Source: Gigantopelta aegis (taxonomy: Eukaryota > Mollusca > Gastropoda > Neomphalida > Peltospiridae). From it: 64,000 nucleotides of DNA. Positions within the stretch are counted from its first letter, which is position 1. Each line of letters starts with the position of its first letter. Location: the NCBI RefSeq assembly GCF_016097555.1, contig NC_054704.1, forward strand, positions 93,174,653-93,238,652, in the 5' to 3' direction. Shown here piece by piece: positions 13,299 through 60,863 of this stretch. A model generated the notes under the pieces. That model made no database searches, had not been told where the DNA came from, and saw only the letters and a list, made by a program, of their open reading frames with translations. The translations under genes and the position numbers were made by a program.

Positions 13299-14288
13299 AT
13301 GAATTTAGATCCGTGTTTCAACATGGAAATGTCTTTCTATGAAAGTCGTCCCATTAAAGAAGAACAACAACGGGATTTACGCGCAAGTTTGAAACGAAAA
13401 ATGGATTCCCCGTTTGAAATTGGACCAAACGGAGAACGAGACGCCGTTGACAGACTGAAGAGAAATATGAAACTGGACTTCAATTCCGCTGGAAATAAGA
13501 AGACGAAACTGAGTCTCCTTCAGTCGCCAGATCTGAACCTTTTGAAATTGGCCTCGCCTGAACTCGAAAAGATGATCATCCAAGCCAACGGAATGGTGAC
13601 CACCACCCCGACCCCGACACAGTTTATCTTCCCTAAACATGTGACGGACGAACAAGAGGCGTACGCCAGGGGGTTCGTGGATGCATTGGCGGAACTGCAC
13701 GACAGTACCATTCCCCAGCCACAAGAACAAGAACAACAACAGTCAACGGTCAAACAAATTAAAGTTACTTCCAGCGCCGTTTCACAGGGTGTGACCAAAT
13801 TCATCACATCCATTTCGAACGGAAATATGACCTACGCCACCGTGCCCACCGTCTCGCAGGGTCTGACAACCACCACGTCCCTCCCTGGAGGTCTCCACAC
13901 TGTCGACCTCACCGGCAGTGTGCCCAAAACTGTTGAACATTTGAACTCTTTTAATATGCCAAAATTTCAAGTGAAGGAAGAACCACAGTGTGTTCCCAGC
14001 TTAGACTGCACCCCGCCCCTGTCTCCAATTAACATGGACAATCAAGAAGTTATCAAGTTGGAGAGGAAGAGGGCGAGAAACAGGGTGGCAGCAAGGAAGT
14101 GCAGAACGAGAAAACTTGAAAGAATCTCAAGGCTCGAAGACAAAGTTGCTGATTTGAAAGGACAAAATACAGACCTGTCGACAACAGCTACCAATCTCAG
14201 GGATCAAGTGTGTAAATTGAAAAAACAAATTATTGATCATGTGAACAGTGGATGTCAGATAATGATGTCGCCAAATTTTTCATTTTGA
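13299..14288 (+). CDS. JUN: Transcription factor AP-1 subunit Jun, single exon
   Basis: 329 codons with no intron, as JUN genes usually are. Jun binds TGACTCA as a homodimer or with Fos/ATF partners and is activated by JNK (established). Seen: the delta/JNK region near residues 50-95 with proline-directed serines S76 (QSPD) and S86 (ASPE), matching vertebrate S63/S73; TTTPTPTQF at 101-109; [19 protein letters not shown] at 116-134; the TPPLSPI motif before the basic region; a basic region from E255 with N261, A264, A265, C268 and R269; five heptad leucines; and the HVNSGCQIM end. Two basic-region residues differ from the usual Jun sequence: R266 where Ser is usual and T270 where Lys is usual. 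The ATG at 13299 gives the longest frame; the ATG at 13323 (AACATGG) has a better context and aligns with the usual METTFYDD start. Confidence 0.96.
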
Positions 14289-28018: not shown

Positions 28019-30235
28019 TTCACACTAACCCGAAAACTAACCTTAGCCCTAAAACTAAATGTAACCCTAACCCTAACCCTAATCCTAACCCTAAAACTAA
28101 CCCTAACCCTAAACCTAACCCCAAAACTAACCCTAAAAATAACCATAACCCAAACCCCAAAACTAATGCTAACCCTAACCCTAACCCCAAAACTAATCCT
28201 AACCCTAAAACTAATCCTAACCCTAACCCCAAAACTAACCCTAACCCCAAAACTAACCCTAACCCCAAAACTAATGCTAACCCTAACCCTAACCCTAACC
28301 CCAAAACTAATCCTAACCCTAAAACTAATCCTAACCCTAACCCCAAAACTAACCCTAACCCAAAACTAATGCTAACCCATACCCTAACCCTAACCCTAAA
28401 CCTAACCCTAACCCCAAAACTAATCCTAACCCTAAAACTAATCCTAACCCTAACCCCAAAACTAACCCTAACCCCAAAACTAACCCTAACCCTAATCCTA
28501 ACCCTAACCCCAAAACTAACCCTAAGCCTAAAACTAACCCTAACCCTAACCCTAACCCCAAAACTAACCCTAACCCCAAAACTAACCCTAACCCCAAAAC
28601 TAACCCTAACCCTAACCCCAAAACTAATGCTACCCCTACCCCTACTCCTACCCCTACCCCAACCCCAACCCCAACCCTAACCCTAACCCCAAAACTAATC
28701 CTAACCCTAAAACTAATCCTAACTCTAACCCCAAAACTAACCCTAACCCCAAAACTAACCCTAACCCAAAACTAATGCTAACCCTAACCCTAACCCTAAC
28801 CCTAACCCTTACTTGCAAAGTATGAAAATATTTCTAACTGTTACCCCCAACTCCCATTATATTGATACATGTATAAAGAGGGAACCTCACACTAACCCCA
28901 AAACTAACCTTAGCCCTAAAACTAAATGTAACCCTAACCCTAATCCTAACCCTAAAACTAACCCTAACCCTAACCCCCAAACTAACCCTAAAACTAACCA
29001 TAACCCAAACCCCAAAACTAATGCTAACCCTAACCCCAAAACTAATCCTAACCCTAAAACTAATCCTAACCCTAACCCCAAAACTAACCCTAACCCAAAA
29101 CTAACCCTAACCCCAAAACTAATGCTAACCCTAACCCTTACCCTACCCTAACCCTAACCCTAACCCTAACCTTAACCCCAAAACTAATCCTAACCCTAAA
29201 ACTAATCCTAACCCTAACCCCAAAACTAACCCTAACCCCAAAACTAACCCTAACCCAAAACTAATGCTAACCCTAACCCTAACCGTAACCCCAAAACTAA
29301 TCCTAACCCTAAAACTAATCCTAACCCTAACCCCAAAACTAACCCTAACCCCAAAACTAACCCTAACCATAATCCTAACCCTAACCCCAAAACTAACCTA
29401 AGCCTAAACTAACCCTAACCCTAATCCTAACCCTAACCCCAAAACTAACCCTAACCCCAAAACTAACCTTAACCCCAAAACTAACCCTAACCCTAACCCC
29501 AAAACTAATGCTACCCCTACCCCTACCCCAACCCCAACCCAACCCCAACCCCAACCCCAACCCTAACCCCAAAACTAATCCTAACCCTAAAACTAATCCT
29601 AACTCTAACCCCAAAACTAACCCTAACCCCAAAACTAACCCTAACCCAAAACTAATGCTAACCCTAACAATAACCCTAACCCTACCCCTACCCTAACCCT
29701 AACCCTAACCCCAAAACTAATCCTAACCCTAAAACTAATCCTAACCCTAACCCCAAAACTAACCCTAAGCCTAAAACTAACCCTAACCCCAAAACTAACC
29801 CTAACCCCAAAACTAATCCTAACCCTAACCCCAAAACTAACCCTAACATCAAAACTAACCCTAACCCCAAAACTAATCCTAACCCTAAAACTAATCCTAA
29901 CCCTAACCCCAAAACTAATCTTAACCCTAAAACTAATCCTAACCCTAACCCCAAAACTAACCCTAACATCAAAACTAACCCTAACCCCAAAACTAATCCT
30001 AACCCTAAAACTAATCCTAACCGTAACCCCAAAACTAATCTTAACCCTAAAACTAACCCTAACCCTAAAACTAATCCTAACCCTAACACTAACCGTAACC
30101 CTAAAACTAATCCTAACCCTAACCCTAAAATTAACCCTAACCCTAAAACTAACCCTAACCCTAAAACTAACCCTAACCCTAAAACTAACCCTAACCCAAA
30201 AACTAACCCTAAATCTAACTCTAACCCTAACAATA
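28019..30235. repeat. Degenerate interstitial telomere-like array
   Basis: 2.2 kb built from CCCTAA (telomeric hexamer, C-strand on plus) mixed with AACCCCAAAACTAA and CCCTAAAACTAA variants. A non-repeat island lies at 28812-28884. Segments at 28019 and 28887 begin alike (ACTAACCTTAGCCCTAAAAC), and CTACCCCTACCCC markers recur at 28633 and 29512, giving a higher-order period near 870-880 bp. Confidence 0.95.
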
Positions 30236-38409: not shown

Positions 38410-41200
38410 GTATGTCGTGGGTTAAATTGAAGATCAGGGGGTTGGGGTGGACAAGGTAGTTGTTGGGGTGGACAAGGTAGTTGTTGGGGTGGAAAAGGTA
38501 GTTGTTGGGGTGGAGGTCATGGTTTGGGGTAGACAATGTACTTGTTAAGGTTGGGGTGGACATGGTAGTTGTTGAGTTAGGGTGGAGGTCATGGTTTGGA
38601 GTAGGTAGGTAGTTGTTAAGGTTGGGGTGGACATGGTAGTTGTTGAGTTAGGGTGGAGGTCATGGTTTGGGGTAGACAGGTAGTTACGGTTGGGGGGGGG
38701 GGGACATGGTAGTTGTTGAGTTAGAGTGGAGGTCATGGTTTGGAGTAGATAGGTAGTTACGGTTGGGGGGGGGGGGACATGGTAGTAGTTGAGTTAGAGT
38801 GGAGGTCATGGTTTGGAGTAGATAGGTAGTTGTTAAGGTTGGGGTGGACATGGTAGTTGTTGGGTTAGGGTGGAGGTCATGGTTTGGAGTAGATAGGTAG
38901 TTGTTAAGGTTGGGGTGGACATGGTAGTTGTTGAGTTAGAGTGGAGGTCATGGTTTGGAGTAGATAGGTAGTTGTTAAGGTTGGGGTGGACATGGTAGTT
39001 GTTGGGTTAGGGTGGAGGTCATGGTTTGGAGTAGATAGGTAGTTGTTAAGGTTGGGGTTGACATGGTAGTTGTTGGGTTAGAGTGGAGGTCATGGTTTGG
39101 AGTAGATAGGTAGTTGTTAAGGTTGGGGTTGACATGGTAGTTGTTGGGTTAGAGTGGAGGTCATGGTTTGGAGTAGATAGGTAGTTGTTAAGGTTGGGGT
39201 GGACATGGTAGTTGTTGGGTTAGAGTGGAGGTCATGGTTTGGAGTAGATAGGTAGTTGTTACGGTTGGGGTGGACATGGTAGTTGTTGGGTTAGGGTGGA
39301 GGTCATGGTTTGGAGGTAGTTTGTTAAGGTTGGGGTTGACATGGTAGTTGTTGGGTTAGAGTGGAGGTCATGGTTTGGAGTAGATAGGTAGTTGTTAAGG
39401 TTGGGGTTGACATGGTAGTTGTTGGGTTAGAGTGGAGGTCATGGTTTGGAGTAGATAGGTAGTTGTTAAGGTTGGGGTGGACATGGTAGTTGTTGAGTTA
39501 GAGTGGAGGTCATGGTTTGGAGTAGATAGGTAGTTACGGTTGGGGCGGACATGGTAGTTTTTTTAGTTAGGGTGGAGGTCATGGTTTGGAGTAGATAGGT
39601 AGTTGTTAAGGTTGGGGTGGACATGGTAGTTGTTGAGTTAGAGTGGAGGTCATGGTTTGGGGTAGACAGGTAGTTACGGTTGGGGTGGACATGGTAGTAG
39701 TTGAGTTAGGGTGGAGGTCATGGTTTGGAGTAGATAGGTAGTTGTTAAGGTTGGGGTGGAAATGGTAGTAGTTGAGTTAGAGTGGAGGTCATGGTTTGGA
39801 GTAGATAGGTAGTTACGGTTGGGGTGGACATGGTAGTAGTTGGGTTAGGGTGGAGGTCATGGTTTGGAGTATATAGGTAGTTGTTAAGGTTGGGGTGGAC
39901 ATGGTAGTTGTTGGGTTAGAGTGGAGGTCATGGTTTGGGGTAGACAGGTAGTTACGGTTGGGGTGGACATGGTAGTAGTTGAGTTAGGGTGGAGGTCATG
40001 GTTTGGAGTAGATAGGTAGTTGTTAAGGTTGGGGTGGAAATGGTAGTAGTTGAGTTAGAGTGGAGGTCATGGTTTGGAGTAGATAGGTAGTTACGGTTGG
40101 GGTGGACATGGTAGTGGTTGGGTTAGAGTGGAGGTCATGGTTTGGAGTAGATAGGTAGTTGTTAAGGTTGGGGTGGACATGGTAGTTGTTGGGTTAGGGT
40201 GGAGGTCATGGTTTGGAGTAGATAGGTAGTTATGGCTGGAGTGGACATGGTAGTTGTTGAGTTAGAGTGGAGGTCATGGTTTGGAGTAGATAGGTAGTTG
40301 TTAAGGTTGGGGTGGACATGGTAGTTGTTGAGTTAGAGTGGAGGTCATGGTTTGGAGTAGATAGGTAGTTACGGTTGGGGTGGACATGGTAGTTTTTTAG
40401 TTAGGGTGGAGGTCATGGTTTGGAGTAGATAGGTAGTTGTTAAGGTTGGGGTGGACATGGTAGTTGTTGAGTTAGAGTGGAGGTCATGGTTTGGGGTAGA
40501 CAGGTAGTTACGGTTGGGGTGGACATGGTAGTAGTTGAGTTAGGGTGGAGGTCATGGTTTGGAGTAGATAGGTAGTTGTTAAGGTTGGGGTGGAAATGGT
40601 AGTAGTTGAGTTAGAGTGGAGGTCATGGTTTGGAGTAGATAGGTAGTTACGGTTGGGGTGGACATGGTAGTAGTTGGGTTAGGGTGGAGGTCATGGTTTG
40701 GAGTATATAGGTAGTTGTTAAGGTTGGGGTGGACATGGTAGTTGTTGGGTTAGGGTGGAGGTCATGGTTTGGAGTAGATAGGTAGTTGTTAAGGTTGGGG
40801 TGGACGTGGTAGTTGTTGAGTTAGGGTGGAGGTCATGGTTTGGAGTAGAGAAGGTAGTTGTTGGGGTGGAGGTCATGGTTTGGGGTAGACAAGGTAGTTG
40901 TTGGGGTGGAGGTCATGGTTTGGGGTAGACAAGGTAGTTGTTGGGGTGGAGGTCATGGTTTTGGGTAGATAGGGTAGTTGTTAAGGTTGGGGTGGACATG
41001 GTAGTTGTTGAGTTAGGGTGTAGGTCATGGTTTGGGGTAGACAAGGTAGTTGTTAGGGTGGAGGTCATGGTTTCAGGTAGATAGGGTAGTTGTTAAGGTT
41101 GAGGTGGACATGGTAGTTGTTGAGTTAAGAGTGGAGGTAATGGTTTGTGGTAGATAAGGTAGTTGTTAACGTTGGGGTGGCAATCAGGGGTTAATGTGGA
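38410..41200. repeat. 71-bp minisatellite, 2.8 kb, with higher-order structure
   Basis: About 38 units of 68-71 bp, each with GGTCATGGTTTGGAGTAGAT, GGTAGTTGTTAAGG and TTGGGGTGGACATGG. The G/T strand contains almost no C. A rare variant with GTAGTTTTTTAGTTAGGG occurs at 39553 and again at 40389, with matching neighbours, so about twelve units (836 bp) were duplicated as a block. Confidence 0.95.
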
Positions 41201-57344: not shown

Positions 57345-58070
57345 TTTCTTACAGGTATTTTACAATAACCCATCACAGACATAAGAGCTAATTTCCCCAG
57401 TGTCCTATAGATTAATACTAAACCATCATAAACACAAGAGATAATTTCCCCAGTGTCCTATAGACTAATACCAACCCATCACGGACATGAGAGCTAATTT
57501 CCCCAATGACCTATAGATTAATACTAACCCATCACAAACACAAGAGATAATTTCCCCAGTGTCCTATAGATTAATACTAACCCATCAGACACAAGATAGA
57601 ATTTCCCCAGTGTCCTATAGATTAATACTAACCCATCAGACACAAGAGAGAATTTCCCCAATGACCTATAGATTAATACTAACCCATCACAGACTAGTTA
57701 CCTGTAGATTAATACTAACCCATCACAAACACAAGAGATAATTTCCCCAATGACCTATTGATTAATACTAACCCATCACAGAACAGTGACCTGTAGATTA
57801 ATACTAACCCATCACAAACACAAGAGATAATTTCCCCAATGACCTATTGATTAATACTAACCCATCACAGAACAGTGACCTGTAGATTAATACTAACCCA
57901 TCACAAACACAAGAGATAATTTCCCCAATGACCTATAGATTATACTAACCCAACACAGACCAGTGACCTGTAGATTAATACTAACCCATCATACACGAGA
58001 GAATTTCCCCAATGACCTATAGATTAATACTAACCCATCACAGACCAGTGACCTGTAGATTAATACTAAC
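57345..58070. repeat. LRRC41: Tandem array of the exon 5 splice-donor region
   Basis: About 15 irregular units of 35-54 bp. Read on the minus strand each has GATGGGTTAGTATTAATCTA, and the longer ones add GGGGAAATTATCTC, which copies the end of exon 5 (GAGGAAATTAGCTCTC). Every unit therefore carries an exon tail and donor. Confidence 0.9.
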
Positions 58071-58208
58071 CCATCACAGACACGAGAGCTAATTTCCTCA
58101 GTGACCTCCAGCCAGGTAGGACTTGAGCCAACATGTGACCAACATCGAGACGATGCGTAGCATTCAGGACAAATGCTTCTAACTCTGTGTCACACGCCAT
58201 TCTATGAA
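58071..58208 (-). CDS. LRRC41: LRRC41 exon 5
   Basis: Acceptor CTGTTTGTAG, donor GATGG|GTTAGT, 138 nt. ATHRLDVGHMLAQVLPGWRS and LRKLALVSV match the human segment ALTLCHLLSSWVSLESLTLS. Its last 35 nt and donor recur in tandem in intron 5. Confidence 0.88.
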
Positions 58209-58804: not shown

Positions 58805-59732
58805 TACAAGTTACTCTCTGAAACAAACTGCACTGACACTGAAGGGTGGCATCGCTCTGGTTGAAGACGCCTCTGTTCGGCACTTCAGGATAAACACACG
58901 GAGCTGACGACATCAACGATGAATTCACAGGTCTCCTCTGCATGAGGACAGCCTCGTCAAAGAGATCAAAATCACCCGTTTCAACACGCAAGCGTTCCGA
59001 CTCACAGCCCTGCAGGCGGACAAACTTTGAATTCGAATGCCCTGTTTGCCTGCGTCTTAGACTTGACTGGATCGTTTCCCCGCGTGTCACGTCTTGGCCA
59101 CTGAGTGACCCCCCACCTTGGTTTGATGCTGGAGCAGAGTCAGTAGATACTGCGGAACATGGCTGAATTTCATGAACTTCTGCAGATGATTGAACTTCGT
59201 GAGTCTCTGTAGATGAAAGCTGAATTTCGTCATCTATAGATGAATGCTGACTTTCGTCATCTATAGAAGATGGGTGAATTTCATGATCTGTGGAAGATGG
59301 CCAAAGTTCACAAACTTCTGTAGACAGTGGCTCAGTTTCATTGACTACTCCTGTAGAAGATGACTGAATTTCCTCACAATCTGTAGAAAATAGTTGATTT
59401 TCCTGAACAACATCTAGAGACTTTCTACGCTTGCCTCTGTCCGAGTTACCAAGCTTATCTTTATTATCTGAATTACTACCTTGAGCTTGAGAGAAATCAG
59501 TATTAGACTTTACGTGATCACATCTGCTGCCATTGACCGAAGATGACGTGTCTTTTGTTTCTTCTGAAGTCTTGTACGAGTCTATGAGTGACAAATCTAC
59601 GTTACACCCGGCAGAGTTATGCGGCCTCCCGACCGCTCCGCAGACCAGACACACCAGCTCCGTCAAGCTCTCCTCAGAGACGAGAATGTTCTTTAAGGCC
59701 ACCTGCTGCAGCCGTCCCCTCCGAATGATTAC
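58805..59732 (-). CDS. LRRC41: LRRC41 exon 4 (acidic Ser-rich insert)
   Basis: 928 nt. Starts VIIRRGRLQQVALKNILVSE and reaches the conserved LVCLVCGAVGRP block (human PCRLCGEASRG), then a long disordered Ser/Asp/Glu segment with degenerate repeats of the type EIQxSST. It closes near CQCSLFQRVTC. The donor TGTA|GTACGT was preferred over AGA|GTAACT because only the former fits the phase of exon 5. Confidence 0.85.
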
Positions 59733-59845
59733 CTGCAGGAAAAGGGAAAGAATGTTTAAGAACACCTCAGCACATGTTTTAAAACTATGGCTGTTTGAAG
59801 TTTCCCAACTGGTTGAGAGAAAAAGAAAGTTAAAAGTTAAAAGTT

Positions 59846-60095
59846 TGCTTTGTTTAATGATACCACTGGACCACAGTGATTAATCAGTCATCAGCTATTG
59901 GATGTCAAACATTTGGTAATTCTGACACACAGCCTTCAAAAGAACTATGCCACAGGACAGCACATACCATGGCCTTTGAAATCTAGCTGCCGTCACAAAG
60001 GCTACTTCTATCAATAAAGCAGCAGGGCGTCTTTCATATGCACTTTTGAATAGACAGAACAGTATATATCATAGCCTTTGATGTACCAGTCTGTG
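59846..60095 (-). mobile_element. SINE copies in LRRC41 intron 3
   Basis: Inverse tail TTTAATGATACCACTGGACC and core AGGACAGCACATACCATGGC, then a second eroded core to 60095 (ATCATAGCCTTTGATGTACC). Confidence 0.7.
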
Positions 60096-60558
60096 ATTAC
60101 CTACAGGAAGGTACAGATGTTTGGGGTGGGGGTGGGGGTCTACGAGGTTGTGATTACCTGCAGGAAGGTACAGATGTTTGGGGTAGGGGTGGGGGTCTAC
60201 GAGCCTGTGTTTACCTGCAGGAAGGTACAGATGTGTGGGGTGGTGGTGTTTCTACGAGCCAGTGATTACCTGCAGGAAGGTACAGATGTGTCGTGTGGTG
60301 GTGGGGGTGGGGGTCTACGAGCCTGTGTTTACCTGCAGGAAGGTACAGATGCCGAGCCAGTGATTACCTGCAGGAAGGTACAGATGTGTCGTGTGGTGGT
60401 GGGGGTGGGGGGTCTACGAGCCTGTGTTTACCTGCAGGAAGGTACAGATGTGTGGGGTGGTGGTGGGGGTGGGGGTCTACGAGCCTGTGTTTACCTGCAG
60501 GAAGGTACAGATGTGTGGTGTGGTGGTGGGGGTGGGAAGTCTACGAGTCTGTGATTAC
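60096..60558. repeat. LRRC41: Tandem array of the exon 3 splice-donor region
   Basis: About eight units of 40-65 bp in intron 3 plus the true junction. Read on the minus strand each has CATCTGTACCTTCCTGCAGG and TAAACACAGGCTCGTAGAC, a copy of the last bases of exon 3 with its donor, followed by a C/A-rich spacer. Confidence 0.92.
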
Positions 60559-60863
60559 CTGCAGGAAGGTACAGATGTGTGGGAAGCTGGCGAGACTGAT
60601 GGTCTGTATGGTCAGGTGTTTGAGATGTGTTATGAACAGCTCGATGAGCTTGTCGTTGGTGTTGATGTACTCCAGCTCACTGCCCTGCAGCGTGATTGTT
60701 GTGCAGTATGCAGCTGTCGTGTACAGGTCGGCGGCCAGCTCTGTCGGGCTCTCGCCGGTCACGAAGCGACCCGCCGCAATGTTCCGCAGAATCCACTGCT
60801 CCTGCTGGGAGTGGAATGCCAACACGTCCAGATGATCGGGCGGGATGTGACGCACGGACCCAT
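60559..60863 (-). CDS. LRRC41: LRRC41 exon 3
   Basis: Acceptor TTCTTCTTCAG, 305 nt, donor CTGCAG|GTAATC. Encodes ILRNIAAGRFVTGESPTELA and LKHLTIQTISLASFP, leading to CTFLQ. Its last bases and donor are the source of the tandem array in intron 3. Confidence 0.9.

Follow-up and report, generated by a model that had tools for sequence, protein, structure and literature searches.

An intron that probably began as a SINE insertion in Gigantopelta aegis, with a minisatellite on its donor border

The window analysed here is a stretch of 64,000 nucleotides from the genome of Gigantopelta aegis, and the feature under study is intron 3 of a gene that NCBI lists as LOC121375526 (protein P0001), an uncharacterized protein. 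The exons around this intron and the elements within it are collected in Table 1. An earlier note on this DNA had called the gene LRRC41; the name is left unconfirmed, with a single Pfam match above cut-off (LRR_1) and the non-committal NCBI label. The junction predicted from the DNA, ...ICTFLQ|VIIRRG..., is identical in the NCBI protein, and precise removal of intron 3 is predicted from that protein model. Homology searches with the protein returned only the protein itself (in some searches only about 8000 candidates were scored), and homology searches together with one scan of viral contigs gave no orthologue by which intron 3 could be dated. Elsewhere in the window, positions 13299-14288 hold a single open frame of 329 aa that resembles a Jun-type bZIP factor, a name given by eye.

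Table 1. Exons, intron and repeat features at the locus (positions in the window)
Feature	Position	Strand	Remarks
Exon 3, LRR protein gene	60559..60863	-	Ends ..ACCTTCCTGCAG; open frame, splice signals and NCBI protein agree
Intron 3	59733..60558	-	826 bp, phase 0, GTAATC...CTGCAG; junction agrees with NCBI protein
Exon 4	58805..59732	-	Starts GTAATCATTCGG (VIIR); 3' border from NCBI protein
Exon 5	58071..58208	-	Last ~36 nt seed the second donor array; 5' border from NCBI protein
Left 16-bp copy	60552..60567	-	TTCCTGCAG|GTAATCA; donor border in use; interpreted as target-site duplication
Right 16-bp copy	59726..59741	-	Acceptor border and start of exon 4; homology of other SINE copies ends mostly at 59741-59736
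Mirage-type minisatellite	60094..60585	-	9 donor-junction copies, working one included; spacing 35-64 bp
Putative founding SINE, 5' part (type C here)	59978..60095	-	5'-truncated; starts at 16-mer of distal array copy
Second SINE (type B here)	59826..59977	-	Nested in the first SINE; limits approximate; 59840-59936 matches its consensus at 86%
Putative founding SINE, 3' part	59742..59825	-	Contains TTCTTAAAC (resembles a branch point by eye) and the pyrimidine tail, CTTTCCCTTTTCC
Second mirage-type minisatellite, same gene	57366..58107	-	Last ~36 nt of exon 5 and donor GTTAGT, repeated at start of intron 5

The two ends of intron 3 share one word: TTCCTGCAGGTAATCA lies without mismatch across both the exon 3/intron 3 and the intron 3/exon 4 junctions. 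This bears out what the earlier note had observed—the same 16 bases at both ends, two junctions that each read FLQVI in the coding frame, and a word that recurs through the intron, where we count three further exact copies and five with one mismatch. Scanning the window with up to three mismatches gave ten matches, compared with a mean of 0.59 in shuffles, none of which (0/100) reached ten. Outside this locus the exact word occurs at two sites in the genome: one (C3, on L018) in no recognised exon, the other (C8, on L019) at the ordinary single donor of an exon that looks caspase-like by eye.

Because the splice-site consensus makes intron borders share bases, real introns were used as the comparison. 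Intron 3 has a border match of 16 bp; the 17 other introns in the set—six of the LOC121375526 gene and 11 of a CCT-family gene (L082)—have matches of 0-5 bp, and donor-acceptor pairs drawn from different introns (n=306) match over at most 7 bp. One intron of the CCT gene also carries a mariner-like open stretch, named by eye, at L082:3100-4080.

Beyond the minisatellite at its donor, intron 3 consists of dispersed repeat: one 5'-truncated SINE interrupted by a second. Its body is a mobile element, as is expected of a transposon-born intron. On the left, an abundant SINE is recognisable by homology from 60095 onwards; this point falls in the final two letters of the distal array copy's 16-mer. 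On the right, the last 80 bp of the intron were compared with the whole genome; among the 50 matches listed, the locus itself included, 48 of the 49 others stop at query bases 51-77 and one at base 80, the 16-mer starting at base 72. With the inner SINE removed, the outer pieces match the SINE core and then L083, a type-C 3' half that has no interruption, in the same order and over nearly their full length (score 182; the maximum of 500 shuffles was 49). The outer element is diverged, at 73% over the 96-bp core, and is split by the inner SINE, so its ends rest on alignment. Its last piece taken alone gives a weak and about equal match to the 3' ends of types A and B (2 and 0 of 2000 shuffles score as high), and this 3' piece is tied to the remainder only through L083; type C was read only there and in intron 3. 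On the sense strand, the 3' end of the SINE (TTCTTAAACATTCTTTCCCTTTTCC) combines a polypyrimidine tract with a word that is branch-point-like by eye.

The SINE limits also show how much of the border repeat is independent of the element. TTCCT in the right copy and CA in the left copy overlap SINE homology, and GCAGGTAAT (9 bp) is the part that lies outside it on both sides. Since TTCCT and CA are common to the SINE, only these 9 bp are duplicated beyond doubt. The borders accordingly present an identical 16 bp, 9 bp of it outside SINE homology, with AG|GT at both, and we consider the 16-mer best read as a target-site duplication of 9-16 bp left by a SINE insertion.

The same observations bear on the possibility that intron 3 is an old intron in which a SINE landed later, the 16-bp match being chance aided by the splice consensus and by SINE bases. 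In its favour, CAG|G and pyrimidines are unsurprising at the two borders of an intron, and TTCCT and CA may be SINE-derived; against it, the border matches of the comparison introns and cross pairs fall far short of 16 bp, and the SINE or the array reaches each border with no older intron sequence in between. We therefore regard an old intron as improbable.

At its donor end the intron carries a minisatellite whose unit spans the exon-intron border: about 24 nt from the end of exon 3, then the donor, then the initial bases of the SINE (CAGACTCGTA or variants of it). In the distal copy the sequence is CAGACTGGTACATC, which runs straight on into the SINE. Exon-3 end sequence is present within this array part, and the rest of the intron is free of exon sequence. 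As the start of the SINE, in original or variant form, follows each copy, the array would have arisen after the insertion, and we rejected it as the origin of the intron. The working donor, CAG|GTAATC, is middling by a generic matrix (3.8 bits; the consensus scores 8.8 and five other donors of the gene 0.7-4.0), and use of a later array donor in place of the first would bring a stop at the sixth codon past the border (VITDS, then stop). The intron 5 array, with reported periods of 36, 53 and 89 bp, likewise has a unit that spans an exon-intron border; both are of the type known as mirages, described below.

The earlier note had attributed intron 3 to tandem duplication of an exonic AGGT segment, of which the inner copies would be remains, and both the identical 16-bp borders and the array of the 16-bp word agree with that proposal. 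Its central idea stands: a duplicated exonic AG|GT word appears to have made both splice sites of a gained intron. Under the tandem-duplication model, however, the intron body should consist of copied exon sequence, so the mechanism differs from the one suggested by the SINE body found here. Between the array and the acceptor lies a SINE rather than an exon copy; exon-3 bases stand before TTCC in 9/9 array copies and are absent at the acceptor; exon-4 bases follow GTAATCA in 0/9 array copies; and bases of the SINE start, or a variant, come after each copy. With the intron body past the array being SINE, we rejected tandem duplication of an exon segment as highly improbable.

Sister copies of the SINE bear on the proposed insertion. 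Types A and B are short and dispersed, some copies lie between target-site duplications of 8-15 bp, and missing 5' ends are common and of variable extent, as in SINEs; the intron 3 copy is 5'-truncated likewise. Exact flanking repeats of at least 9 bp were found at 13/50 A and B copies and absent at 37/50, in a set that holds one copy twice (L055/L061) and several tandem copies in L077, compared with 2.2% when flanks of different copies were paired; four of the 13 are such tandem copies in L077, hence not target-site duplications. The flanking repeats include TTTTCAAACAGG, TTATCACTAGTAA, TTCCTCTGAAGACTA, TCATTTCATGTT, TTTATACAGT and TTAATAGTAA, among others. ARAGORN found no tRNA in the A and B consensus sequences, and the intron 3 copy is truncated before the head. 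Capture of a SINE fragment during double-strand-break repair could also leave short direct repeats, which occur at 43% of gained introns in Daphnia and are ascribed there to break repair in the survey of gains in PMC3443670, but the 9-16 bp repeat, the 5' truncation and the full SINE 3' tail that adjoins the right border are marks of ordinary retroposition, shared with some sister copies, and make break repair extremely improbable.

Together, we favour, at a probability of roughly 0.83, an origin of intron 3 by insertion of a SINE into a once uninterrupted exon, followed by a nested SINE and by a minisatellite at the donor border. The SINE would have entered at ACC TTC CTG CAG GTA ATC ATT, in sense orientation and 5'-truncated; as the target, TTCCTGCAGGTAATCA must have been contiguous, so that exons 3 and 4 would once have formed one exon. 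In target-primed insertion, a stretch of 9-16 bp within TTCCTGCAGGTAATCA would have been duplicated; the donor CAG|GTAA would come from the left copy, the acceptor CAG|G from the right one and the polypyrimidine tract from the SINE tail CTTTCCCTTTTCC. Splicing would then take out the SINE and one copy of the target, leaving protein and reading frame unchanged. Later, the first SINE would have been interrupted by a second one, and the nine-copy minisatellite would have grown from the donor border, made up of the end of the exon, the duplicated site and the first SINE bases.

The gain of introns in animals remains an open subject, as young introns that still bear traces of their origin are rare. 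Intron 3 appears to keep both copies of the target, the two ends of the element, a nested insertion and a later expansion of the border, and its origin is directly testable in related vent snails. An intron derived from a SINE insertion is known in the rice catalase gene CatA; both cases lead from SINE insertion to intron, CatA being in a plant and involving a different SINE. We searched titles and abstract openings of the open-access literature for a mollusc case of intron gain by SINE insertion with target-site duplication, and found none there.

More generally, transposon insertion at the protosplice site AGGT is a recognised route of intron gain; the tabulation in PMC3443670 lists 35 events as of 2012, from Oryza, Drosophila, Oikopleura and Zea. 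In those events, as proposed for intron 3, both splice sites come from duplication of an AG|GT target and the coding sequence stays intact; unlike the events in that table, intron 3 lies in a mollusc and would be the work of a SINE (PMC3443670). A second point of comparison is the introners. As summarised in Gozashti et al. 2022 (PMC9860276), most of them fit DNA transposition, and some show duplications of 3-9 bp; for animals and land plants together that paper gives only two groups with introners, both of them animals, and its main text does not use the words SINE, mollusc or gastropod. Introners resemble intron 3 in that a mobile element makes the intron and target-site duplications can lend the splice sites (PMC9860276). 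Unlike an introner family, the Gigantopelta case described here is one intron.

The array at the donor has its own parallels. Mirages are minisatellite-like tandem duplications of exon-intron borders, described for the Adh3 and globin genes of amphioxus in PMC3087553. As in the intron 3 array, the repeats described there span the border, hold the exon end and a splice signal, and adjoin the working border; unlike them, the array described here is in a mollusc, at a donor, and on a border apparently made by a SINE insertion (PMC3087553). Donor-border minisatellites at several loci of Gigantopelta provide cases for the study of how such arrays start and whether splicing is affected. In human IFI6 (G1P3), work published in NAR in 1995 reportedly described a minisatellite with multiple splice donors, made of 12-bp units and with the donors used alternatively. 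Like the intron 3 array it places donor sites in tandem at an exon end; the 12-bp units and the alternative donor use belong to the human case. In the literature covered here, border minisatellites are otherwise met in amphioxus and human. We accordingly file intron 3 as a further case of a recognised intron-gain mechanism, with a second known structure, the mirage, on its border.

A wider reading, which we think doubtful, is that the SINEs with pyrimidine tails in Gigantopelta act as a standing source of introns, any insertion whose target duplication contains CAGGT being spliced out at once. If this were true, many introns of Gigantopelta and its kin would be SINE-born and their borders prone to mirage expansion; such expansion would set a series of zero-length AG|GT steps, possibly removed stepwise, with the mRNA unchanged.

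Border arrays occur elsewhere in this genome. At C14 (L017:3372-5292), a locus met through its likeness to the 16-mer, an open frame ends in GCTGTCCCTTCAG|GTAATC, and a 32-bp unit of that border then recurs in about 55 copies; Pfam gave no match for the C14 exon. We also looked for border recurrence in exons chosen without regard to repeats, namely 30 of the 80 matches of an HMM search for myosin, less nine on unplaced contigs; several of these exons belong to one gene, and borders were placed by a generic matrix and by eye. Recurrence was scored as a second copy of the junction on the intron side (50-nt window, score of at least 30), the threshold being chosen after 105 shuffles of donor-side DNA had reached at most 24. 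The donor border recurs downstream in 3/21 placed myosin exons (L052, L055 and, less clearly, L054), and the acceptor border recurs upstream in 4/21. For the two other genes the counts are 0/11 donors and 0/11 acceptors (CCT) and 2/7 donors and 1/7 acceptors (LOC121375526), with two CCT borders and the intron 4 borders placed 1-7 bases off. There is no excess of border arrays at donors in this small sample of the myosin, CCT and LOC121375526 genes. In exon content, donor-side copies hold 23-25 nt (25 being the window limit) and acceptor-side copies 0-11 nt.

At L055:1639-2368 and L052:1717-2136 the 3' end of a myosin exon and its donor are tandemly repeated in the next intron, and L054:1501-1880, one of the three myosin donor cases, looks like a decayed second copy of a myosin exon within the intron that follows it. 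L061:1-1501, L079:1-1491 and L064:1413-1515 (sense orientation) hold arrays or duplicates as well; these stop at an acceptor or just short of it, and their unit includes little exon sequence or none. Three CAGGTAA words in a row occur 10153 times, compared with 2971 for the reversed word; as long arrays dominate the matches listed, this count was set aside as proof. Tandem repeats are present in and beside the window as well: a degenerate interstitial array of the hexamer CTAACC extends over 2.2 kb (28025-30231; 69% matches), a 2.4 kb minisatellite of 71/139-bp units lies at 38483-40862, and a 7.5 kb array of an 88-bp unit (L016:2350-9901) is found just past the window end.
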